DNA of 64,000 nt, from positions 506,684 through 570,683 of the forward strand of contig MKUP01000033.1 of the NCBI GenBank assembly GCA_001898625.1. Reading direction: 5' to 3'. The position numbers were made by a program, and so were the translations under genes. This DNA comes from Burkholderiales bacterium 67-32. GTDB taxonomy: Bacteria; Pseudomonadota; Gammaproteobacteria; Burkholderiales; Burkholderiaceae_B. The notes below the pieces were generated by a model that did no database searches, had not been told where the DNA came from, and worked only from the letters and a program-made list of their open reading frames with translations. Position 1 is the stretch's first letter, and the number at the start of each line of letters is the position of its first letter. Below are positions 2,474-15,295 of this stretch, in pieces.

Positions 2474-3442
2474 TTACTCGGGTTTCACTCCGGCTTCTGC
2501 GATGACTTCTTCCCAGCGTTTCTTTTCGCTGCGGATGAAGTCGCGGGCCTGGGCGTGGGACTTGATCATCGGATAGGTGCCCAGTTCCGCCAGGCGCGTC
2601 ACGAAGGGGCCCTGGCGCAGCGCCGCGTTGACGTCGGCGCTGGTCCGGTCGATCACGGCCTGGGGCGTGCCCTTGGGGGCGAACATCGCGAACCAGCCGG
2701 AGGCGACGGTGCCGGGTACGGCGTCCTTGGCCAGCGGAATGCCTTCCAGCCCGGGCAGCGCTTCGTCGGCCGTAACGGCGATGGCCTTGATGCGGCCGCT
2801 GCGTACCAGCGGGAGCAGCGGCGCGGTGCCGTCGACGTACAGCGGGATGTCGCCCTTGATCAGCGCCTGGATCGCCTGGGTGGTCCCGCTGAAGCCGATC
2901 TGCCGGAAGCGGGCATGGCCGTACTGGCCCATCATCTCCGACGTCAGGTGGGGAATGGAGCCCCGGCGGGGACTGCCGATGACCACGTCGTCGGGTTTGG
3001 CCTTCGCGGCGGCCAGGATCTCGGCCACGTTCCGGTAGGGCGCCTGGGCATTGGCGACGAACAGCATGGGCGTATAGGCGATGGTGGCCACGGTCTCGGC
3101 GTCGCGCTCGATGTCGAAGCGGGCTTCCTTGTACATGACCGGCGTGGTCACCGCCGCCGCGGCGTGGAACAGCCCCAGGGTGTAGCCGTCGGGCGCGGCC
3201 TGGGCCAGTTCCTGCATGGCGGCGATGCCGTTGCCGGCGGGGCGGTTCTCCACCACCACCTGCTGGCCCCAGGCCGCGGTCAGCCGTTCGGCCACCAGCC
3301 GCGCGATGATGTCCGGGGCGCTGCCGGCGATGGACGGCACCACCATTTTCACCATGCGGGCCGGATAGGTCTCGGCGGCAAGCACCGGCACCGTGGCCAG
3401 GATGCCCGCCAGCGCGGCGGCGCAGGCCAGTTTGCGATCCAT
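2474..3442 (-). CDS. Bug/TctC-family periplasmic solute-binding protein (Bug 1)
   Basis: This 322-residue tripartite-tricarboxylate-type receptor would capture a carboxylated or amide solute in the periplasm. It has a Sec signal peptide (MDRKLACAAALAG, cleavage after VLAA) and the family core: ligand loop 1 VPSIAGSAPD, the PDGYTLG turn, and loop 2 GSPRRGSIPH. Loop 1 has GSAPD where classical members have GGxxD. ATG 3442 is chosen because GGAGGAGAC stands just upstream; the open frame to 3511 would add residues before the signal peptide. No membrane subunits (TctA/TctB) are nearby, and its own substrate cannot be deduced because its flanks are the MFS gene and a TetR gene. Confidence 0.9.
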   Translation of the reverse strand: MDRKLACAAALAGILATVPVLAAETYPARMVKMVVPSIAGSAPDIIARLVAERLTAAWGQQVVVENRPAGNGIAAMQELAQAAPDGYTLGLFHAAAAVTTPVMYKEARFDIERDAETVATIAYTPMLFVANAQAPYRNVAEILAAAKAKPDDVVIGSPRRGSIPHLTSEMMGQYGHARFRQIGFSGTTQAIQALIKGDIPLYVDGTAPLLPLVRSGRIKAIAVTADEALPGLEGIPLAKDAVPGTVASGWFAMFAPKGTPQAVIDRTSADVNAALRQGPFVTRLAELGTYPMIKSHAQARDFIRSEKKRWEEVIAEAGVKPE

Positions 3443-3585
3443 CTCTTGTCTCCTCCGGTACGCGCGGACAGCTTGGGCGATGTCCGGTCCGCGACCATAT
3501 TTGATATGCATTCAATTAATGTACGAATAATTGATTGAGTATCAAATAATGGTTTGTACGGAGAGGGAGCCGCGGCCGGAAAATC

Positions 3586-4359
3586 TCAGGCAGGCTTGCG
3601 CGGGCGCCGGGGGATGGAAGCGCCCGCGCGCCAGGCGGCGATGCCGTCCAGCGTGATGCGCAGCCCTTCGTCGAAGGCGGTGGCCGAGCTCAGGCGGGCG
3701 AACGAGCGGCTGATGGCGCGCGCGGCGGGGTACGGGTCCGCCGACTCCAGGCGGGCCCGGATGAAATCCTCGTGGTAGGCCGGCATCTGCCGCGAGGCTT
3801 CGGCCATGCTGGCGCCCACCAGGTACTGGGCGATCAGGTGATAGGCCAGCGCCACCTGGTCGTGCGTGAAGCCGCCCTGCATGATGGCCGAGGCCATGTG
3901 GTTGAAGAACACCATGCCGTAGTCGGTCTCGTCCGGCTCGACGTCCTGGAACAACCGGTAGCGGTTGTGCGAGGCCACGTACATGCTGGCGCCGGGGTTG
4001 GCGATGGCCACGGCGAAGCTCAGCCGCGCGATGGTCTCGACGTCGGAGCGCCAGTCGCCGGTCAGCGGGGGCAGCTTCTCGACCCGCTGGCGGTAGTAGT
4101 CGTTCAGGACGCCCGACACCAGCTTGTCGCGTCCGCCCATGTAGTAGTGGATGAGGCCGGGCGCCACGCCGAAGTCCCGCGCCAGTTGCACCATCGAGAT
4201 CTGGTCCAGCGGCATGCTCTTGGCTAGGTCTATCGCGCGCTGGAGGATGGCCCAGCGGCTCAGCAGCGGCTCGGCGGTAATCGGCGATTCGACCTTGGGG
4301 GGCCGGCCGCGGCGGCGGGGAGCGGCGGCCTGGGCAGCGGCCTTCTTGGAGGCGGGCAT
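3586..4359 (-). CDS. TetR/AcrR-family transcriptional regulator
   Basis: This 257-residue repressor has a basic, Ala-rich leader (RRRGRPPK), then a TetR helix-turn-helix (ISMVQLARDFGVAPGLIHYY) and a helical effector-binding part. It is the last gene of the minus-strand aryl-CoA operon, 85 bases after the FAD monooxygenase, and probably senses a pathway intermediate. ATG 4359 is used; a GTG at 4386 in frame would add nine residues, and neither has a good ribosome-binding site. A perfect ATTGCC-N5-GGCAAT palindrome at 4401-4417 lies immediately upstream and could be its own operator. Confidence 0.85.
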   Translation of the reverse strand: MPASKKAAAQAAAPRRRGRPPKVESPITAEPLLSRWAILQRAIDLAKSMPLDQISMVQLARDFGVAPGLIHYYMGGRDKLVSGVLNDYYRQRVEKLPPLTGDWRSDVETIARLSFAVAIANPGASMYVASHNRYRLFQDVEPDETDYGMVFFNHMASAIMQGGFTHDQVALAYHLIAQYLVGASMAEASRQMPAYHEDFIRARLESADPYPAARAISRSFARLSSATAFDEGLRITLDGIAAWRAGASIPRRPRKPA

Positions 4360-4400
4360 GGTGGACGGGGCGGATGGAAACGGCACTATCGTAGAAAATT

Positions 4401-4417
4401 ATTGCCAGGGCGGCAAT
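4401..4417. promoter_or_regulatory. Palindrome, candidate TetR autoregulatory operator
   Basis: ATTGCC-AGGGC-GGCAAT is a perfect 6-bp inverted repeat in the short gap upstream of the TetR gene. The position fits autoregulation by this repressor. It does not match the palindrome at the operon promoter (9447-9461), so the two sites need not bind the same protein. Confidence 0.45.
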
Positions 4418-4444
4418 TTACCCACCTTTCCGGCCCCGCCCGGG

Positions 4445-5593
4445 CTATCCGGCCAGCGCCGCCACCCCGGCCTCCTCCATCTCGCGGACCAGGTCCGGAT
4501 ACTGGAGCTTCAGGCGGTCGCGATCGACCCGCCCCGTGCGGGTCATGAAGCGGTAGACGAATTCATGCGGCGATTCGATCCGCATCCATTCGCGCACGCG
4601 CTCGTACCAGTTGTAGGAAGCTTCCGAAGCGCGGATGAGCCGCTGCTTGGCGGGCTTGCGCGACGCCACGTACAGCTCCAGCGCGCCGCCGACGTCGTCC
4701 GGCCGCTGCCGCAGCGCCTCGGCCAGCGCGACGGCGTCCTCCATCGCAATGCGGGTGCCCGAGCCGATGGAGAAGTGCGCGCTGGCCAGCGCATCGCCCA
4801 GTAGCACGCGGTTGCCCGCATGCCAGGCGCGATTGCGGACCACCGGAAACTGGCGCCAGCTGGAATGATTGGATATCAGCCCATGTCCGCCCAACTCCGG
4901 CGCGAACACTTCCTCGAACAGGGCCTGCCGCGCCCGCGCATCCATCGCTTCCATGCCGAACTCAACCCAGGTCCGGTCGTCGCACTCGGCCACGAAGGTG
5001 CTCATGGCCGCCGAATACGGGTAGTAGTGCGCGACGAAGCAGCCGCCCCGCCATTCGCGGAACACCAGCGCCGGCGTCTCGAAGGCCTTGTCGACGCCGT
5101 ACCAGGCGAAGTGGTTGGTCAGTTGGCCGTGCGTCGTGCCGAAGGCGGCTTCGTCGGCCGCGCGCAGCGTCGAGTTCACGCCGTCCGCGCCCACCACCAG
5201 GTCGGCGTCCAGCGCGTGGACGTCGGCCAGCCTGTGCTCGTGGCGCACGTCCACGTCCAGGCGGCGGGCATGGTCGTGCAGGATGCGCAGCAGATCGATG
5301 CGCGGGATGGCACCGCCGCCCGCCCCCGGCCGGCGCACGACGATGGGCCGCTCGCGCATGACGATGGTCTGGCGGTCGTTGAAGCGCATGGCGCCCATCA
5401 GGTCCTCGACCACCTCGGGCGCCGCTTCGCGCAGCGAGGCCAGGCCGCTATCGGCCAGCACCACGCCGAAACCGAAGGTCGCGTCCGCCGGGTTCTGCTC
5501 GTGCACGTCGATGCGCGCGTGCGGCAGGCGCTGCTTGAGCAAGATGGACAGGAACAGCCCCGACGGCCCCCCGCCGACGATGATGACCTTCAT
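4445..5593 (-). CDS. FAD-dependent aromatic monooxygenase, salicylyl-CoA 5-hydroxylase-like
   Basis: This 382-residue flavoprotein hydroxylase has the N-terminal dinucleotide motif GGGPSGL (about residues 7-13), the VVGADGVNSTLR motif near the middle and GNRVLLGDALASAHFS for the flavin ribityl region near 290. The overall pattern, including the FGFGVVLADSGL segment, resembles the monooxygenase domain of salicylyl-CoA 5-hydroxylase and 2-aminobenzoyl-CoA monooxygenase, which act on CoA-bound aromatic acids. Its start ATG overlaps the stop of the VOC gene by four bases (ATGA, 5590-5593). With the CoA ligase upstream this suggests hydroxylation of an aryl-CoA. The exact substrate is inference; a free aromatic acid remains possible. 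Confidence 0.8.
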   Translation of the reverse strand: MKVIIVGGGPSGLFLSILLKQRLPHARIDVHEQNPADATFGFGVVLADSGLASLREAAPEVVEDLMGAMRFNDRQTIVMRERPIVVRRPGAGGGAIPRIDLLRILHDHARRLDVDVRHEHRLADVHALDADLVVGADGVNSTLRAADEAAFGTTHGQLTNHFAWYGVDKAFETPALVFREWRGGCFVAHYYPYSAAMSTFVAECDDRTWVEFGMEAMDARARQALFEEVFAPELGGHGLISNHSSWRQFPVVRNRAWHAGNRVLLGDALASAHFSIGSGTRIAMEDAVALAEALRQRPDDVGGALELYVASRKPAKQRLIRASEASYNWYERVREWMRIESPHEFVYRFMTRTGRVDRDRLKLQYPDLVREMEEAGVAALAG

Positions 5594-6441
5594 GGCGACT
5601 CCGTCGGATCGATGGCAAGGATGTCCATGTCGAACGCGGCGATGTTGCCCGCCAGGCCGCCCGTCAGCGCGCCGTACCAGAGGGCGGGCTTGAAGCCCAG
5701 CTCCTTGCGGCGGAAACGCAGACCGGGCGCGCCGTCGATGCGGGCGTAGCCGGCCGCGCCGCGGTGCACCGCGTAGCCGCGCGCGCGCGCATCGTCCAGC
5801 AGCGGAGCGAACTCGGGCACGTCCAGCACGTACACCGAAGCCACGCCCGCCGGCCGGTCGGCATCGTCCAGCGCCGCCGCCTTGCGGCGCCATACCGGCT
5901 CGATGCCGTCCAGGCGCTCGCCCTGCCCCGCCTCCAGCGCCATCGCGGCTTCCAGCGTGCGGGCCGCGTCATCCGCGTCGGCCTGGCCGAAGGGCCGCAA
6001 CTGGGTCGTGATCTCGATCGGGTAGCCGTTGGGATCGTTGAAGTAGATGGACTCGATCACCTCGTGGCGGATCTGGTAGCGCAGCGGAATGCCGGCGGCT
6101 TCCACGCGCGCGCGCCACCGCAGCAGCTCGGCTTCGTCCGGTACCTGCCACGCGGTGTGCGTCGCGCGTTCCTGGTAATGGTCGCTCACGCGCAGCTTGT
6201 CCGGGCGCTGCGTGCCGATGTAGTAGAAGAACGCGATGGTGCTGCCGTTGCCGCTGTCGAAGAAGAAATGCAGGAAGTCGGCATGGTCGTCCTGCCCCCA
6301 GCCGCGCGCGGAGATCGCGTGCACCAGCGGCAGGCCGAGCTGGTCGCGGTAGAAGCGCACCGTCTCGGACAGTTTCCAGGTGGGGCGCGCGGTGTGATGT
6401 ACGCCGTGCAATCGCAGGGGGGAAAGCGCTTCGGTGTTCAT
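5590..6441 (-). CDS. VOC-superfamily protein, possible ring-cleaving dioxygenase
   Basis: This 283-residue protein has one clear vicinal-oxygen-chelate domain at residues 10-150: LHGVHHTARPTWKL with the first metal His, FYRDQLGLPLVH, ATHTAWQV with the second His, and PNGYPIEITTQL with the Glu ligand. A C-terminal part of about 110 residues (EFAPLLDDARARGYAV through AAFDMDILAI) is not recognised. Extradiol dioxygenases and glyoxalases share this fold; ring cleavage is suggested only by the neighbouring ligase and hydroxylase. It is coupled by ATGA overlaps to the ligase upstream (6438-6441) and the monooxygenase downstream. Confidence 0.75.
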   Translation of the reverse strand: MNTEALSPLRLHGVHHTARPTWKLSETVRFYRDQLGLPLVHAISARGWGQDDHADFLHFFFDSGNGSTIAFFYYIGTQRPDKLRVSDHYQERATHTAWQVPDEAELLRWRARVEAAGIPLRYQIRHEVIESIYFNDPNGYPIEITTQLRPFGQADADDAARTLEAAMALEAGQGERLDGIEPVWRRKAAALDDADRPAGVASVYVLDVPEFAPLLDDARARGYAVHRGAAGYARIDGAPGLRFRRKELGFKPALWYGALTGGLAGNIAAFDMDILAIDPTESP

Positions 6442-8129
6442 GTCGGAAGTTCCTCGTTTGGCCGCGCCAGGATGGCGGCGATCCGTTCCCGCAGGATCTG
6501 CTTGCTGAGCTTGCCGGAGGCCGAAAGCGGGAAATCCGCCAGCACCTCGATGCGTTCGGGCCACTTGAACTTGGCCAACCCTTCCCCGTGCAGGAAGCGG
6601 CCCAGCTCCTCGACGTCCGGCGCGCACGCCGATGGCCTGAGCGTGGCGAACAGGCAGGCCTTCTCCCCATAGACGGGATCGGGCATGCCGACCAGCGCGC
6701 AGTTCAGGATGGCGGGATGGCGGCTGACGACGCCCTCGACCTCCTCGGCGTTGATCTTCTCGCCGCCGCGGTCGATCACGTCCTTGATGCGGCCCTGGAA
6801 GAAGTAGTAGCGGCGGCCGCCCTCGACCCGGCTGGACATCAGGTCACCCGAGCGGTAGTGGCCGTCCGCCGTGAAGCGGTGCGCGTCCTCGGCGGCCGAC
6901 TTGTAGTAGCCCTGGATGGTGTACGGGCCGCGGAACAGCGCCTCGCCGACCTCGCCGTCGGCCACCGGCTCTTCCGTGCCCGGGCGGACGATCTTCACTT
7001 CGTCGTGCGCGGACACCGGCCGGCCGACCGAACCGTCGTTCAGGTGCCGCGGGTCGTCTTCCCGCGTGAACATGATCACGCCCTCGGTCATGCCGAAGAT
7101 GTGGCGCGCGGGCGACCCCGTGAGCCGCGCCATGCCGCCCGCGTTCTTCGAGGTGATGAAGCGCCGGCGCGCCTTCTCGCCCTCGCCGGCGCGGGCCAGT
7201 TCGGGCACGATGCGCGTCAGAATGGGACCGGGCGCGCCGAACCAGGTGGGACGGTGCTCGCGGACCAGCGCGCACAGGGTTTCCTCGGCCAGGTCGGGTG
7301 CCACCGTAACCGCGCCGCCGCACAGCAGGAAGGGGCCGAAGCAGCATCCCATGTTGAGGTTGTGCATGTACGGCGTGGGAAAGAACAGCACGTCGTCGCG
7401 GGTGTAGCCGTTGCAGGCGGCGACCTCCCGCATGTTGTACAGGTACTCGCTCTGGAAGCGGGGGATGATCTTGGGCACCCCGGTCGTGCCGCCGGACAAC
7501 TGGAACACCGCCACCTGCCACGGGTCGTGCTCGACGTCCGCCAGCATCGTCCTGGCACGCTCCCAGGGCATGCCGTCGATCAGTCGGCGCAGCCCGTGCG
7601 CGCCGGCGCGCGGCTCGCCCCGCGCCTGCACGATATGGCGCAGCGTGGGCACGGCCGCCTGCATCTCACGCGCGAAGGCCACGTCGTCGAACCGGGCGTC
7701 GTCGCCCTGGACGAGGTGCAGGCGGGCATCGGCCAGCTTCGCCAGATAGCCCACTTCCAGCTTGCGGAAGGCCTGCAGCGCGCAGATGGGAATCAGGCCC
7801 GCCTTCAGGCAGGCCAGGAAAGCCACCAGCAGTTCGGCGCAATTGCCGCTCTGCAGCAGCACGCGGTCGTGCTGGACCAGCCCCATCGCCAGCATGGCCG
7901 CGCCCAGCCGGTCGCTGTCGCGATCCAGTTCGCGATAGCTCATCCGCAGTTGCGGTCCCACCAGCGCCAGCCGGTCGGCATGCAGCGCGAACGAGCGGGC
8001 GAACGCGCCCGCCAGCGTCTCGCCGCCCAGCAGCCCCAGCTCCGCGTAGCGGCGCAGGCGGCCGGCGTCGGGATAGCGCACGCCCTCCAGCCGGGTCTTC
8101 GGTTCCACGTCGATCATGTCCGCACTCAT
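6438..8129 (-). CDS. AMP-forming acyl-CoA/aryl-acid ligase
   Basis: This 563-residue ANL-superfamily enzyme would activate an aromatic acid as acyl-AMP and then acyl-CoA. Visible motifs are the P-loop LSGGTTGVPKIIP, the ATP motif FGMTEGV, YRSGDLMS, the hinge GRIKDVIDRGGEKI and the C-terminal catalytic Lys in ASGKLSKQIL. It resembles the 2,3-dihydroxybenzoate/salicylate ligases (EntE/DhbE, SdgA group). Starts at 8135, 8129 and 8117 are all possible; 8129 has a GGGA six bases upstream. It begins right after the hydrolase stop (8143) and ends overlapping the VOC start by four bases. Confidence 0.85.
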   Translation of the reverse strand: MSADMIDVEPKTRLEGVRYPDAGRLRRYAELGLLGGETLAGAFARSFALHADRLALVGPQLRMSYRELDRDSDRLGAAMLAMGLVQHDRVLLQSGNCAELLVAFLACLKAGLIPICALQAFRKLEVGYLAKLADARLHLVQGDDARFDDVAFAREMQAAVPTLRHIVQARGEPRAGAHGLRRLIDGMPWERARTMLADVEHDPWQVAVFQLSGGTTGVPKIIPRFQSEYLYNMREVAACNGYTRDDVLFFPTPYMHNLNMGCCFGPFLLCGGAVTVAPDLAEETLCALVREHRPTWFGAPGPILTRIVPELARAGEGEKARRRFITSKNAGGMARLTGSPARHIFGMTEGVIMFTREDDPRHLNDGSVGRPVSAHDEVKIVRPGTEEPVADGEVGEALFRGPYTIQGYYKSAAEDAHRFTADGHYRSGDLMSSRVEGGRRYYFFQGRIKDVIDRGGEKINAEEVEGVVSRHPAILNCALVGMPDPVYGEKACLFATLRPSACAPDVEELGRFLHGEGLAKFKWPERIEVLADFPLSASGKLSKQILRERIAAILARPNEELPT

Positions 8130-8142
8130 CTCCATTCCCGCG

Positions 8143-9396
8143 CTAGGCCATTTTCTCGCGCAGCCACTCGCCGGCCGCGCGCCCGGCGATGCGCTGGCCG
8201 GGCTCCTCGCCCGGCGCCAGCGCCAGGCCATGGTGATTGCCGCGCACGCGCAGGTGGCGCTTGTCGGCGGCGCCGATCTGTTCGTGGATCGTCCGGATGT
8301 CGGCCGGGAAAGTGCATTGGTCCCCCGTGTACTCCACCAGCAGCGTGGGCTGGGTGATGGCGCCCGCGGTCTTCTCCAGCGCGGCGTTGGACGACAGCCC
8401 CGACCAGGTGGACAGCCAGGACTCGGGCGTGACCACCCGGCCGAATCCCACACTGCCCCAGTTCGAGGCCAGCGGGTTCCTGCCCCACAGCGATCCCGTC
8501 CTGCGGTCCGACGGATCGATGGAGATGTCCCATGAACGAAGATCCGCATCGGTGCGCCACACGTGGAAAATGGGCGCATGCGCCGCGATCCGCTGCTCGG
8601 CCATCGACGCCCCGCCCGCCTTGACCTTCGCCCGGGCCTCGGCCTTGCGCCGCAGCAGACCGCGCGCGCGGGCGTCGATGCGCGCCACCCGCTCGGCCTG
8701 GGCGGCACGGTAGCGCTGGACGAATACCGGGTCGTAGGACGCGGCGCCCGTCTCGGCATCGTAGCCGTTGTCCCGCGAGAAGGGATCCAGCGCGGGATCG
8801 GTGTCCAGGGGATCGTCCTCCGACACCACCGAAGGGTCGATGCCGGCCATCAGCAGCCTGCCCTGCCCGGGATGCGGGGACAAGAGGATCATGCCGTCGG
8901 CGCGCGGCATCTCCAGCTCGGCCAGGGCGGTGGGCCGGCCGCCCGGCGTGCGGGCGATGCGCTGCTCCCCGGGCAGCGACGACTGCTGGTTGTAGAGCGT
9001 GTACAGGCCGGCGCCGCCCGAGTTGCCCAGCAGCACGATGTTCTCGTAGCCCAACGACCGCAGGTGCGCCATGCCGGCCGCCACGTCGAACAGGGCCACT
9101 TCGTGCTCGAGCCGCAGGTCGTTGCCGATGGATCTCGACCCCTGCACCCAGCAGGCGCAGCCGGCATCCAGCACATGAGGCACCATGTAGTGCGTTACCG
9201 CCATTTCCCGCGGATGCATCAGCGACACGACCGTCCTGCCGGACTCGGCCGTGGTGAACAGGAAGCCCAGCGTGCGCTGGCCGTCGGCCGTGCCCAGCGC
9301 ATAGGGCACCACCTGGTATGGCCGGCTCATCAGCCGGGGGTCCCACGACGCGCCTCTCATGCCGGCCGTGACGACCGGCTTGTCGGTAGTGGCCAA
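8143..9396 (-). CDS. Alpha/beta hydrolase, first gene of the aryl-CoA operon
   Basis: This 417-residue soluble hydrolase shows the nucleophile elbow GNSGGAG (Ser about residue 125) and a late RVRGNHHGL that supplies the catalytic His; the acid is probably in LLVEYTGDQCTF. It could cleave an ester or thioester, either releasing the aromatic acid or removing CoA from a product. The start is TTG 9396, because GAGGAG stands six bases upstream, while the next ATG (9360) has no ribosome-binding site. It is the promoter-proximal gene of a five-gene minus-strand operon ending with TetR. Confidence 0.75.
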   Translation of the reverse strand: MATTDKPVVTAGMRGASWDPRLMSRPYQVVPYALGTADGQRTLGFLFTTAESGRTVVSLMHPREMAVTHYMVPHVLDAGCACWVQGSRSIGNDLRLEHEVALFDVAAGMAHLRSLGYENIVLLGNSGGAGLYTLYNQQSSLPGEQRIARTPGGRPTALAELEMPRADGMILLSPHPGQGRLLMAGIDPSVVSEDDPLDTDPALDPFSRDNGYDAETGAASYDPVFVQRYRAAQAERVARIDARARGLLRRKAEARAKVKAGGASMAEQRIAAHAPIFHVWRTDADLRSWDISIDPSDRRTGSLWGRNPLASNWGSVGFGRVVTPESWLSTWSGLSSNAALEKTAGAITQPTLLVEYTGDQCTFPADIRTIHEQIGAADKRHLRVRGNHHGLALAPGEEPGQRIAGRAAGEWLREKMA

Positions 9397-9432
9397 GGGA
9401 GTCTCCTCGAATTAAATATCACCCTATCAATT

Positions 9433-9461
9433 AAATTATGCTTTATTTGACATGATGTCAA
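9433..9461 (-). promoter_or_regulatory. Promoter of the aryl-CoA operon with overlapping operator
   Basis: On the minus strand TTGACA (9461-9456) is a perfect -35 box, followed by exactly 17 bases and TAATTT (9438-9433) as a -10 box. The -35 box is one arm of a perfect palindrome TTGACAT-G-ATGTCAA (9447-9461), so a bound repressor would block polymerase. The palindrome also gives TTGACA on the plus strand, facing the histidine kinase gene, but without a good -10 box there. The region 9410-9470 is markedly AT-rich compared with its surroundings. Confidence 0.65.
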
Positions 9462-12203: not shown

Positions 12204-14153
12204 CTATCGCGCCACGTGCAGGAAATGGCGATGGCGCTCGTACTGGTCCAGGATGTCGCCGATCACGGCGTCGCGGCTCCAACCCATGATGTCGTAGTCC
12301 TGGCCTCCCTCGCGCAGGTGGACCTCGGCCCGGAAGTACTTGCGCCCCTCTTCGTCGCGCACCTCGGCGGCGGTCAGTCCGGGGCGCACGAAAGACTCCG
12401 GCCGCACGGCGTAGGAAAAATCCAGGGCCTCCTGGTGCACCACCTCCAGCGCCACCTCGCCGTCCTCGCCATCGCGCACGCGCGCTTCGTAGCCCAGCTT
12501 CTGCAACTCTTCCACCACGGCCTCCATGGCCGGCCGCACCACGTCGGCGGTAAAGCGCAGAACGTGGGCGCGGCGCGGCATCATGACCATGTTGCGCAGC
12601 CGCGATTCCCAGGGTTCCCCGCCCCCGGCCGGCCGTGACAGCGCCAGTGACTGATGGTGGATGCGGCGCTTGGTGGCGTCAAGCTTCAAGGCCTTGAACA
12701 GCCCCCACACCGAGACCAGCAGCACGATGGAGAACGGCAGCGCGCTGGCGATGGTCGCGGTCTGCAACGCCTGCAGGCCATCGGCCAGCAACAGGGCCAC
12801 CGCCACCACGCCGGTCAGGACCGACCAGAAGATGCGCTGCCATACCGGCGAAGGCTCGACGCCGCCCGACGCCAGCAGGTCCACCACCAGCGCGCCCGAA
12901 TCGGCCGACGTCACGAAAAACACCACGACCATCGCGATGGCCAGCACGGAAATCGCATGCCCCCAAGGGTAGTGCTCGAGGAAGGCGAACAGCGCCAGCG
13001 AACTGTCCGCCTTGACCGTGTCGGCCAGGCTGTCCAGGTGCTCGAACAACACCAGATGAATGGCCGAGCCGCCGAACACCGTCATCCACAGGAAGGTGAA
13101 GCCCGTGGGCACCAGCAGCACGCCCAGCACGAACTCGCGTATCGTCCTGCCGCGCGAGATGCGGGCGATGAACAGCCCCACGAACGGCGACCAGGCGATC
13201 CACCAGCCCCAGTAGAACAGCGTCCAGCCGCCTATCCAGTCCGTGGGCTGGTAGGCATAGAGATTGAAGGTCTTGGCGACGATGTCGGACAGGTAAGCGC
13301 CGATGTTCTGCAGGAAGCTCTGCAAAAGGAAGATGGTCGGCCCGACGGCCAGCACGAACACCAGCAGGATCACCGCCAGGTACAGGTTGGCTTCGGACAG
13401 GATGCGTATGCCGCGGTCCAGCCCGCTCGCCACCGACAGCGTCGCCAGGCCGCAGGCGATGGCGATCAGGATGATCTGGGTGGTCGTGCCGACGGGCGTC
13501 CCGAACAAGTGGTGCAGGCCGCTGTTGATCTGCGCCACGCCCAGCCCCAGCGACGTCGCGACGCCGAACACGGTGCTGATGATCGCGAAGATGTCCACGG
13601 CGTTGCCGATGGGGCCGTGGATGCGGTCGCCGATGAAGGGATACAGCGCGGACCGCAACGTCAGCGGCAGATTGTGGCGATAACTGAAATAGGCCAGGAC
13701 CAGCGCCACGATCGCGTAGAGGGACCAGGCGTGCAGGCCCCAGTGGAAGAAGGTGATCCTCATGGCTTCGCGGGCCGCGGCCACGGTGCCTGCCTCGCCC
13801 ACGGGCGGCGAGACCAGGTGCATGATGGGTTCGGCCACGCCGAAGAACATCAACCCGATGCCCATGCCGGCCGAGAACAGCATCGCGAACCAGGTGAAGT
13901 TCCGGTAGTCGGGCTCGCTGTGGTCCGGCCCCAGCTTGATGCTGCCGTAGCGGCTGACCGCCATGAACACGACCGACAGCAGGATGATGGCCACCGCCAG
14001 GATGTAGAACCAGCTGACGTTCGTCAGTATCCACCCCTGGATCGTGTCGAAGACGTCTCCGACGACACGCGGGACGGCCACCGCGCATGCGACCAGCGCC
14101 AGGATGAAAGCGGCCGCGGTGAAGAACACTGGGCGATCTATCGTTGTTTTCAT
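12204..14153 (-). CDS. betT: BCCT-family choline/betaine transporter, BetT-like
   Basis: This 649-residue inner-membrane carrier has about twelve helices and family landmarks GMGIGLMFFGVAEPIMH near residue 95 and FYWGWWIAWSPFVGLFIARI near 340. A soluble C-terminal region of about 130 residues follows the last helix, as in long BetT proteins where it senses osmotic strength. It should import choline or a related trimethylammonium compound with protons or sodium. The stop is seven bases from the end of the convergent GST gene. Upstream, a 14-bp palindrome (14259-14272) lies between it and the divergent Bug gene. betA/betB are not in this window. Confidence 0.85.
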   Translation of the reverse strand: MKTTIDRPVFFTAAAFILALVACAVAVPRVVGDVFDTIQGWILTNVSWFYILAVAIILLSVVFMAVSRYGSIKLGPDHSEPDYRNFTWFAMLFSAGMGIGLMFFGVAEPIMHLVSPPVGEAGTVAAAREAMRITFFHWGLHAWSLYAIVALVLAYFSYRHNLPLTLRSALYPFIGDRIHGPIGNAVDIFAIISTVFGVATSLGLGVAQINSGLHHLFGTPVGTTTQIILIAIACGLATLSVASGLDRGIRILSEANLYLAVILLVFVLAVGPTIFLLQSFLQNIGAYLSDIVAKTFNLYAYQPTDWIGGWTLFYWGWWIAWSPFVGLFIARISRGRTIREFVLGVLLVPTGFTFLWMTVFGGSAIHLVLFEHLDSLADTVKADSSLALFAFLEHYPWGHAISVLAIAMVVVFFVTSADSGALVVDLLASGGVEPSPVWQRIFWSVLTGVVAVALLLADGLQALQTATIASALPFSIVLLVSVWGLFKALKLDATKRRIHHQSLALSRPAGGGEPWESRLRNMVMMPRRAHVLRFTADVVRPAMEAVVEELQKLGYEARVRDGEDGEVALEVVHQEALDFSYAVRPESFVRPGLTAAEVRDEEGRKYFRAEVHLREGGQDYDIMGWSRDAVIGDILDQYERHRHFLHVAR

Positions 14154-14258
14154 GGGACTCCCCGTTGAACATGCTTGCTCGCGTCCGGAACGCTCGCGGC
14201 GGGTATCGCCTGTCCCGCATTTTTTCACTCCTGGCCCCTTTCAGGCAAACGCCGGTGC

Positions 14259-14272
14259 GTTAACTAGTTAAC
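14259..14272. promoter_or_regulatory. Perfect 14-bp palindrome between divergent genes
   Basis: GTTAACTAGTTAAC is a perfect palindrome in the gap between betT (minus) and the Bug 2 gene (plus). Such a site could be a dimer-binding operator for one or both genes. No regulator gene lies next to it, so the binder cannot be named. Confidence 0.4.
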
Positions 14273-14326
14273 CGACAGTCTTGCGGCACCGCCGCAGAAT
14301 GGCACCATTCAAGGTGGAGACTTGCG

Positions 14327-15295
14327 ATGACAACCCTGCGTACCGCCCTGGCCGCGCTGCTGGCCATGACCGCGACGGCCCCCGTCCCGGCGGCCGATTT
14401 CCCGACTCACCCCATCCAGCTCGTCGTGCCCTTCGCCGCGGGCGGCACGACCGACCTGCTGGCCCGCACGGTCGCCGGCGGCATGAGCCGGCAACTGGGC
14501 CAGTCGGTGGTCATCATCAACCGCCCGGGCGCCGGCACGGTGGTGGCGGCGCAGTCGGTGGCCAAGGCGCCGGCGGACGGCCACACGCTGCTGGTCGCCA
14601 GCAACGCCACCCTGGCCATCAACCCCCTGCTGATGAAGGACGTGGGCTACTCGCCCACCGACTCCTTCGGCTACGTCTCGCTGCTGGGCAGCGTGCCCAA
14701 CGTGGTCGTGGCCCGCCCCGACGCCCCGTGGACCACCCTGGTCCAGGCGCTGGACCAGGCGCGCGAGCGTCCCAAGGGGCTGGCCTACGGCTCCATGGGT
14801 GCCGGCACGTCGAACCAGATCGGCATGGAACTGGTGGGCCTGCAACGGTCGGCCACCCTGCTGCACGTCCCCTACAAGGGCAGCGCCCCCGCGCTGGTGG
14901 ACCTGATGGGCGGCAACGTCGACGTGGTGGTGGACACGCTGGCCGCCACCCTGCCGCAGGTACGGGCCGGCAAGCTCAAGGCCCTGGCCATCCTGAGCGC
15001 CAGGCGCTCGCCGCTGGCGCCCGAGATCGGCACCGCGCAGGAACAGGGCGCGGGCGAGGTCGACCTGTATTCGTGGTTCGGCATCGTCGCGCCAGCCGGC
15101 ACGCCCGGTCCGGTCATCGACCGCCTGAACGCCGCCGTGCGCGCGGCGCTGGCCGACCCCGGCGTCGCGGCCACCCTGAAGCAGGCGGCCATCGAACCCT
15201 CGGGCTCGACGCCGGGCCAGTTCGCCGAGTTCGCCACCCGGCAGCGCGAGCTGTATGCCCGTATCATCGAACGCACCCGGATCACACTCAACTGA
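14327..15295 (+). CDS. Bug/TctC-family periplasmic solute-binding protein (Bug 2)
   Basis: This 322-residue receptor has a signal peptide ending at PVPAAD, ligand loop 1 VPFAAGGTTD (the classical GGxxD form), the DGHTLLVASN turn and loop 2 GSMGAGTSNQ. GGTGGAG stands just before ATG 14327. A RidA-family gene starts seven bases after its stop and is surely co-transcribed, so the ligand may be a nitrogenous acid whose breakdown produces enamines or imines. No TctA/TctB genes are near. Confidence 0.92.
   Translation: MTTLRTALAALLAMTATAPVPAADFPTHPIQLVVPFAAGGTTDLLARTVAGGMSRQLGQSVVIINRPGAGTVVAAQSVAKAPADGHTLLVASNATLAINPLLMKDVGYSPTDSFGYVSLLGSVPNVVVARPDAPWTTLVQALDQARERPKGLAYGSMGAGTSNQIGMELVGLQRSATLLHVPYKGSAPALVDLMGGNVDVVVDTLAATLPQVRAGKLKALAILSARRSPLAPEIGTAQEQGAGEVDLYSWFGIVAPAGTPGPVIDRLNAAVRAALADPGVAATLKQAAIEPSGSTPGQFAEFATRQRELYARIIERTRITLN

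Follow-up and report, generated by a model that had tools for sequence, protein, structure and literature searches.

A VOC-family protein and a serine hydrolase as probable ring-opening enzymes of a conserved aryl-CoA gene cluster

Which enzyme opens the aromatic ring when a gene cluster encodes an aryl-acid ligase and a flavoprotein of the type acting on coenzyme A (CoA) esters, and no gentisate dioxygenase? This question is raised by an operon in a stretch of 64,000 nucleotides (nt) from Burkholderiales bacterium 67-32 (contig MKUP01000033.1, positions 506,684 to 570,683), the whole of which is called the window here. The genes encode a hydrolase (HYD), an AMP-binding ligase (LIG), a VOC family protein (VOC), a FAD monooxygenase (FMO) and a TetR-type regulator. 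An earlier note on this DNA had described them as a compact aryl-CoA module in which VOC was the only candidate for ring cleavage. In this study, we compare the cluster across public genomes and weigh the chemistry it may perform. We consider it likely that VOC cleaves the ring and that HYD, jointly with it, acts as C-C hydrolase. With somewhat less assurance, the operon is read as serving the breakdown of an ortho-hydroxyaryl acid, for which salicylate, plain or substituted, is the best candidate; the chances that the window copy itself carries out salicylate/gentisate chemistry are about even.

Conserved gene content and candidate ring-opening enzymes

Public genomes were scanned with a profile of the hydrolase, and all counts out of 80 refer to the best 80 of the 202 hydrolase relatives. 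These loci of 7-19 kb each are the closest relatives and not independent, and some end at contig edges. The score thresholds for counting genes were set by us; gene calling relied on a codon-usage script that placed some starts wrongly and overlooked genes in L053 and L057. HYD, VOC and LIG are present in 80/80 loci and FMO in 79/80, the four core genes standing together in 79. Among the accompanying genes, a TetR-type homologue occurs in 77 loci, a Bug-type one in 40, and two further enzymes, hotdog thioesterase and maleate-isomerase homologue, in 73 and 56, respectively; all six enzymes are found in 54. The grouping is not due to chance: the co-occurrence of the four enzymes, which the earlier note had advised to search for, is conserved. 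Two cluster types are present, 45 loci with a type-1 ligase, as in the window, and 35 with a type-2 ligase, and the window's own genome carries both. Its second cluster (L049, G000:C27:145862) is of type 2, has the order HYD-VOC-LIG-thioesterase-FMO-Bug and differs in the ligase pocket.

The reported lack of a gentisate dioxygenase in the operon extends to the whole set, though the host has three homologues over the cut-off elsewhere. A tblastn search with five host sequences matching the gentisate dioxygenase model found a cupin gentisate dioxygenase homologue in 0/80 loci, and FAA-hydrolase and maiA homologues are likewise missing from all 80 at E 1e-15. Ten unlabelled neighbours were scanned as possible hidden gentisate dioxygenases and set aside: they are MFS transporters (four), a thiolase, an SMP-30 protein, an outer-membrane protein, an SDR, a porin and a permease.

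VOC matches Pfam Glyoxalase over residues 14-144 (E 1.4e-14, 55 bits against a cut-off of 20.6), and its predicted model has pLDDT 85.2 and pTM 0.84. The top Foldseek match of the model is 9u42, titled homogentisate 1,2-dioxygenase (Acinetobacter), and further matches include BphC (1kmy, 1han) and methylmalonyl-CoA epimerases. The best solved match by sequence is 9u42 too, with E 7e-13 for the window VOC and 1.2e-32 for one distant VOC. Residues H16, H41, H58, H95, H126, Y133 and E143 are invariant in 80/80 loci of types 1 and 2 and in 18/18 distant loci, termed type 3. By analogy to BphC, we take H16, H95 and E143 to be a 2-His-1-Glu metal site and H58, H126 and Y133 its second shell; the model is thus predicted to combine a VOC fold with an extradiol-like site.

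The neighbours of distant VOC homologues suggest which genes may take each other's place. Labels in the type-3 and flavoprotein loci are best BLAST matches of the called genes. Within 15 type-3 VOC loci of 7 kb, a HYD homologue is found in nine (L212-L217, L219, L221, L224), an FAA-hydrolase-type gene in five (L218, L222, L223, L225, L226) and neither in L220; in 11 of the 15, a gene is labelled as flavin monooxygenase homologue. Direct scanning placed fumarylacetoacetase in L218, maiA in L222 and FAA_hydrolase in L222, L223 and L226 (the three scanned) above the curated cut-offs; the FAA-type call in L225 is based on matching gene lengths and the sequence of its neighbour. For comparison, we used genes similar to SdgC, the flavoprotein of the salicylyl-CoA pathway of Streptomyces sp. 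WA46, which lie outside such clusters in other genomes. Of eleven such flavoprotein places (42-45% identity), nine were used, eight of them in frames of 324-427 amino acids (aa) and that of L204 in a 1014-aa frame. A homologue of cupin gentisate dioxygenase is found in six of the nine loci, at 55-58% in five and at 35% in one; five of the six are from one genus. A labelled VOC or HYD homologue is present in none of the nine. Neither a cupin homologue nor VOC/HYD is found in L197, L203 and L205; L201, L204 and L205 end at contig edges, and L201 additionally holds an FAA-hydrolase.

Because of its invariant residues, the structural match to 9u42 and BphC, its genomic slot next to FAA-hydrolase or maiA genes and the replacement of the cupin dioxygenase, VOC is probably the ring-cleaving enzyme of the cluster, in agreement with the earlier proposal. 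In 12/80 loci (L087, L089, L090, L092, L094, L102, L105, L110, L122, L126, L127, L134) the VOC gene is split into a dioxygenase domain and a C-terminal module of 84-90 aa, mostly as overlapping genes. Two of the modules were tested and gave no Pfam match. The plasmid locus L228 and locus L230, on a plasmid as well, encode a small hypothetical protein where the module of the split VOC sits.

HYD shows no Pfam or NCBIfam match at E 0.001 and no phmmer match in the PDB up to E 1; an alignment profile found weak matches only (best E 0.13). Its predicted model has an alpha/beta hydrolase fold (mean pLDDT 72.6, some stretches scoring under 50). A Ser-Asp-His triad was placed by position after the predicted strands. 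S126, D359 and H389 are kept in 80/80 loci of types 1 and 2, and the triad is found in 12 of 13 aligned type-3 sequences, the remaining one being gapped there. Fold and triad of the model mark HYD as a predicted serine alpha/beta-hydrolase. Since it accompanies VOC with or without CoA genes and alternates with FAA hydrolase in type-3 loci, HYD is probably a C-C hydrolase for the ring-cleavage product. A maleate-isomerase homologue, as found in 56 of the loci, would make sense if maleate arises from the VOC product by this cleavage.

Predicted route and rival explanations

The following route is proposed for the cluster. LIG would turn an ortho-hydroxyaryl acid into its aryl-CoA, and FMO would hydroxylate it para to the existing hydroxyl, in the case of salicylyl-CoA to gentisyl-CoA. 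The hotdog thioesterase, where present, would free gentisate. VOC would open the 1,4-dihydroxy ring beside the carboxyl-bearing carbon, taking the place of a cupin gentisate or homogentisate dioxygenase; HYD would cut the resulting diketo compound to give maleate plus a keto acid, and the maleate cis-trans isomerase would give fumarate. The isomerase homologue of L046 matches the solved enzyme 4fq7 at E 7.5e-72. Pyridine (nicotinate-type) pathways likewise end in maleate; this possibility was set aside, as no maleamate-amidase-like gene was recognised in the gene lists and sequences, in which no dedicated search was made.

For type-1 clusters, salicylate/gentisate chemistry is suggested by the families of LIG and FMO. 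LIG matches TIGR02275 (E 5e-106; 355 bits, under the cut-off of 723.55), and its best solved relative is the salicylate-AMP ligase 5wm2 (E 3e-88), which agrees with its earlier assignment to aromatic-acid activators. At Asn259 and Cys264, 5wm2 likewise has Asn and Cys in the alignment; in the specificity code of the acid pocket, these presumably stand for an ortho-hydroxyl and for salicylate, respectively. The Asn is invariant in 19 aligned ligases (L053 and L057 were left out owing to broken gene calls); the Cys is so in the 11 of type 1 and not in the eight of type 2. LIG therefore appears related to salicylate/2,3-dihydroxybenzoate-AMP ligases, which does not imply the same function. FMO, earlier called salicylyl-CoA-hydroxylase-like, indeed matches PRK08255 over residues 1-374 (E 6.2e-93; 312 bits, the cut-off being 1078). 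PRK08255 is a 768-position model of a fused protein of which FMO covers the first half; the fused oxidoreductase half is lacking. The FMO homologue in L199 reaches 404 bits, likewise under the cut-off, and the structure of VioD (3c4a) matches FMO at E 3.5e-47. A tree of 53 rows, selected from 115 by thinning, places type-1 FMOs in one group with unfused and gentisate-dioxygenase-linked FMOs and type-2 FMOs in one with fused ones, which is a hint only, the tree being midpoint-rooted with long branches and a long-branch warning. By family, FMO is salicylyl-CoA 5-hydroxylase/VioD-like and may act on salicylyl-CoA. Type-2 clusters probably serve another acid, judging from their different ligase pocket and from MFS genes in some loci, which are related to aromatic-acid/H+ symporters and score under the cut-off of that family.

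Several observations weigh against the proposed route, among them the sub-cut-off scores of LIG and FMO just given. Alcaligenes aquatilis QD168 is reported to carry a gene like SdgC, at 40% to it, and not to grow on salicylate (PMC6460240), so an SdgC-like gene is no proof of salicylate use. The whole-chain superposition of VOC on 9u42 is poor (TM 0.24, rmsd 17), and the arrangement of the modules may differ. The gentisate 1,2-dioxygenase model finds seven matches in the host genome, on contigs C28, C23, C25, C7, C33 and C4, and three of these exceed the curated cut-off; the same search gave matches in 4/14 control genomes, none above the cut-off. A maleate isomerase is missing from the window locus, and a 56% homologue lies on another host contig. 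FMO is lacking in L110 (Ramlibacter), the sole such locus; at 13917-14390 it encodes a membrane-like 157-aa protein between VOC and thioesterase. Locus L230 of Pseudosulfitobacter has the set VOC-LIG-FMO-thioesterase-isomerase; a search at E 1e-8 gave no HYD homologue, and the HYD position is taken by an annotated alpha/beta hydrolase, which is shorter. Distant HYD homologues in L189-L195 stand without a labelled VOC, and in L190 a 33% cupin gentisate dioxygenase homologue is found about 7 kb away, a pattern suggesting that the HYD family is broader than a role as C-C hydrolase.

The earlier note had left two options for CoA, ring opening of the CoA ester or later removal of CoA by the hydrolase. 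A further difficulty for the release of free gentisate is that the window operon (3586-9396) has no thioesterase gene and that none was found in L059-L061; moreover, the L045 thioesterase has a single homologue in the host, in the second cluster, and the LIG, VOC and FMO genes overlap. These points would suit cleavage of a dihydroxyaryl-CoA by VOC, with HYD or a thioesterase removing CoA afterwards. We nevertheless hold this to be improbable, since 73/80 loci include a thioesterase beside the other genes and VOC and HYD homologues are paired, type-3 loci included, in loci of 7-20 kb without labelled ligase or thioesterase. The same findings speak against HYD as the CoA-removing thioesterase; of the two options, opening of the CoA ester is possible and not favoured, and HYD as thioesterase is set aside. 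A shade less probable still is an aerobic hybrid route, in which VOC would cleave a para-dihydroxyaryl-CoA and the large serine hydrolase, of a new family, would act on the ring-opened CoA intermediate and directly give maleate and an acyl-CoA.

Unlikely as well, and yet the least unlikely of the alternatives, is a route from 2-hydroxyphenylacetate (or lactone) to homogentisyl-CoA, with VOC as homogentisate dioxygenase and HYD forming maleate and acetoacetate (or acetoacetyl-CoA) for uptake by a thiolase. The nearest solved VOC relative indeed carries the name homogentisate, not gentisate, dioxygenase, and distant VOC relatives adjoin maiA and fumarylacetoacetase. A close thiolase in 11/45 type-1 loci and opposite-strand 3-oxoacid CoA-transferase subunits in L096 would fit acetoacetate rather than pyruvate, and an SMP-30-type gene is present in 7/80 loci. 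However, the closest relations of LIG are salicylate and 2,3-dihydroxybenzoate ligases, salicylyl-CoA 5-hydroxylase is the NCBIfam model closest to FMO, and FMO relatives occur with gentisate dioxygenase homologues in 6/9 loci. The published 2-hydroxyphenylacetate route runs, in the part of the paper available, through P450, HmgA, HmgC and HmgB, and a CoA ligase is not named there (PMC11889516). Finally, VOC might be a non-redox isomerase, epimerase or lyase, while a cupin dioxygenase elsewhere cleaves the ring and HYD is an esterase releasing the aromatic acid. The three host cupin homologues above the cut-off and the methylmalonyl-CoA epimerases among the structural matches could be cited for this. 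It is made very unlikely by the invariant extradiol-like residues, by the absence of cupin gentisate dioxygenase homologues from all 80 loci and by VOC homologues adjoining fumarylacetoacetase or maiA with no gentisate dioxygenase homologue labelled.

Gene layout, candidate operator and distribution

The features of the operon and its surroundings are listed in Table 1.

Table 1. Features of the window around the VOC-hydrolase operon
Feature	Position	Strand	Remarks
HYD, predicted serine alpha/beta-hydrolase	8143-9396	minus	417 aa, TTG start
LIG, AMP-binding aryl-acid ligase (by family)	6438-8129	minus	563 aa
VOC protein	5590-6441	minus	283 aa; VOC domain and C-terminal module of about 85 aa
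FMO, FAD monooxygenase	4445-5593	minus	382 aa
TetR-type regulator	3586-4386	minus	266 aa, GTG start; Pfam TetR_C_1 E 2.5e-7
Palindrome TTGACAT-N-ATGTCAA	9447-9461		candidate TetR operator upstream of HYD
Bug/TctC solute receptor gene	2474-3511	minus	Pfam TctC E 8.3e-53

Of the layout described before, the five minus-strand genes, the ATGA overlaps at the LIG/VOC and VOC/FMO junctions and the palindrome were found again. The single promoter was not, as a scan for the sigma-70 consensus gave no promoter upstream of HYD, and placement of the TetR gene on the same transcript as the enzyme genes is unproven in view of a 58-nt gap after FMO with a weak terminator-like hairpin (4417-4401). HYD and LIG are separated by 13 nt. 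The palindrome lies 50 nt ahead of the HYD start and is the sole match in the window at up to two mismatches (shuffled sequence mean 0.02). Within 150 nt upstream and at up to three mismatches, the motif is found in 7 of 13 type-1 loci, exact in L060 and L061, with one mismatch in L059 and degenerate in L062, L065, L073 and L075; the other six are without it. The TetR-type protein would probably repress from this palindrome. On the same strand after TetR, beyond the span covered by the earlier note, follows the Bug/TctC gene with its own promoter-like site (3545-3518), whose product is possibly, to judge by its family, a receptor for substrate uptake.

The window genome is Pigmentiphaga-like, and its nearest public relatives are Pigmentiphaga. 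VOC matches at E 1e-20 were obtained in 43 of the 268 genomes of its family; in 11 of these, its own genome included, identity is at least 71%. In an even sample of the phylum the hydrolase proved rare, with matches in 9/299 genomes at E 1e-10, only the own genome exceeding 40% identity, and a plasmid collection gave a VOC match at E 1e-30 in 11 of 72,556 records. The cluster is hosted by Burkholderiales, Pseudomonas, Azospirillum and two actinomycete plasmids. Cupriavidus metallidurans CH34 (L227) has homologues of all six enzymes. A Rhodococcus qingshengii plasmid (L228) has a row of monooxygenase, AMP-binding, TetR, VOC, small hypothetical and alpha/beta hydrolase proteins; P450, 2Fe-2S and flavodoxin genes lie ahead of it, and demethylation of a methoxy acid perhaps feeds the cluster. 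Homologues of the four core enzymes are found on a Streptomyces plasmid (L229), where next to the cluster come genes for a family III CoA-transferase and an HMG-CoA-lyase-like protein (13027-15286), downstream of it, which might handle a methylated product. Two further loci of the window's own genome (L186, L187) pair VOC with hydrolase and have no labelled CoA ligase; one of them adjoins flavin monooxygenase and IclR genes.

Relation to known systems

No description of the cluster came up in full-text searches of open-licence PMC papers, judging by the titles and opening abstract lines of the entries listed; one elsewhere is possible. All its parts belong to known superfamilies, and the PDB already includes a homogentisate dioxygenase of VOC fold; what appears new is the pathway variant. 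If correct, it would represent a second solution for the opening of gentisate-type rings, by a VOC dioxygenase and a serine hydrolase, and would do without cupin dioxygenase, glutathione-type isomerase and FAA hydrolase in the cluster. Genome-based prediction of salicylate-type breakdown would then miss the cluster, whose key proteins are named just VOC family protein and alpha/beta hydrolase in annotated records.

The window VOC shares the VOC fold with 9u42, which is known to us by its title, and the aligned positions H16, H95 and E143 agree; however, 9u42 is a chain of 182 aa, whereas VOC, at 283 aa, carries an additional C-terminal module, and its gene stands with those of CoA ligase and CoA-ester hydroxylase homologues. 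A gentisyl-CoA hotdog thioesterase, BH1999 of Bacillus halodurans, is reported from a gentisate pathway cluster in the part of the literature source available (PMC516016). Related clusters have a hotdog thioesterase in common with it, those of L045 and L049 being of the 4HBT_2 type, whereas the window locus has none. Known maleate cis-trans isomerases serve the breakdown of nicotine and nicotinate. The solved isomerase 4fq7 resembles the L046 homologue; in the present clusters, the neighbours are instead LIG-FMO-VOC genes. The classical gentisate pathway relies on cupin gentisate 1,2-dioxygenase, which these clusters lack. In the Sdg pathway of Streptomyces sp. WA46, CoA activation is followed by a flavoprotein 5-hydroxylase and then by gentisate, and the ring is opened by gentisate 1,2-dioxygenase SdgD. 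The hydroxylation step of SdgC takes place on the CoA ester, as stated in the available portion of the source (PMC13215587). The window operon would share with this pathway the CoA activation, the flavoprotein 5-hydroxylation of a CoA ester and the subsequent gentisate; in the place of SdgD, it has VOC and a predicted serine hydrolase, often joined in related loci by a maleate isomerase.

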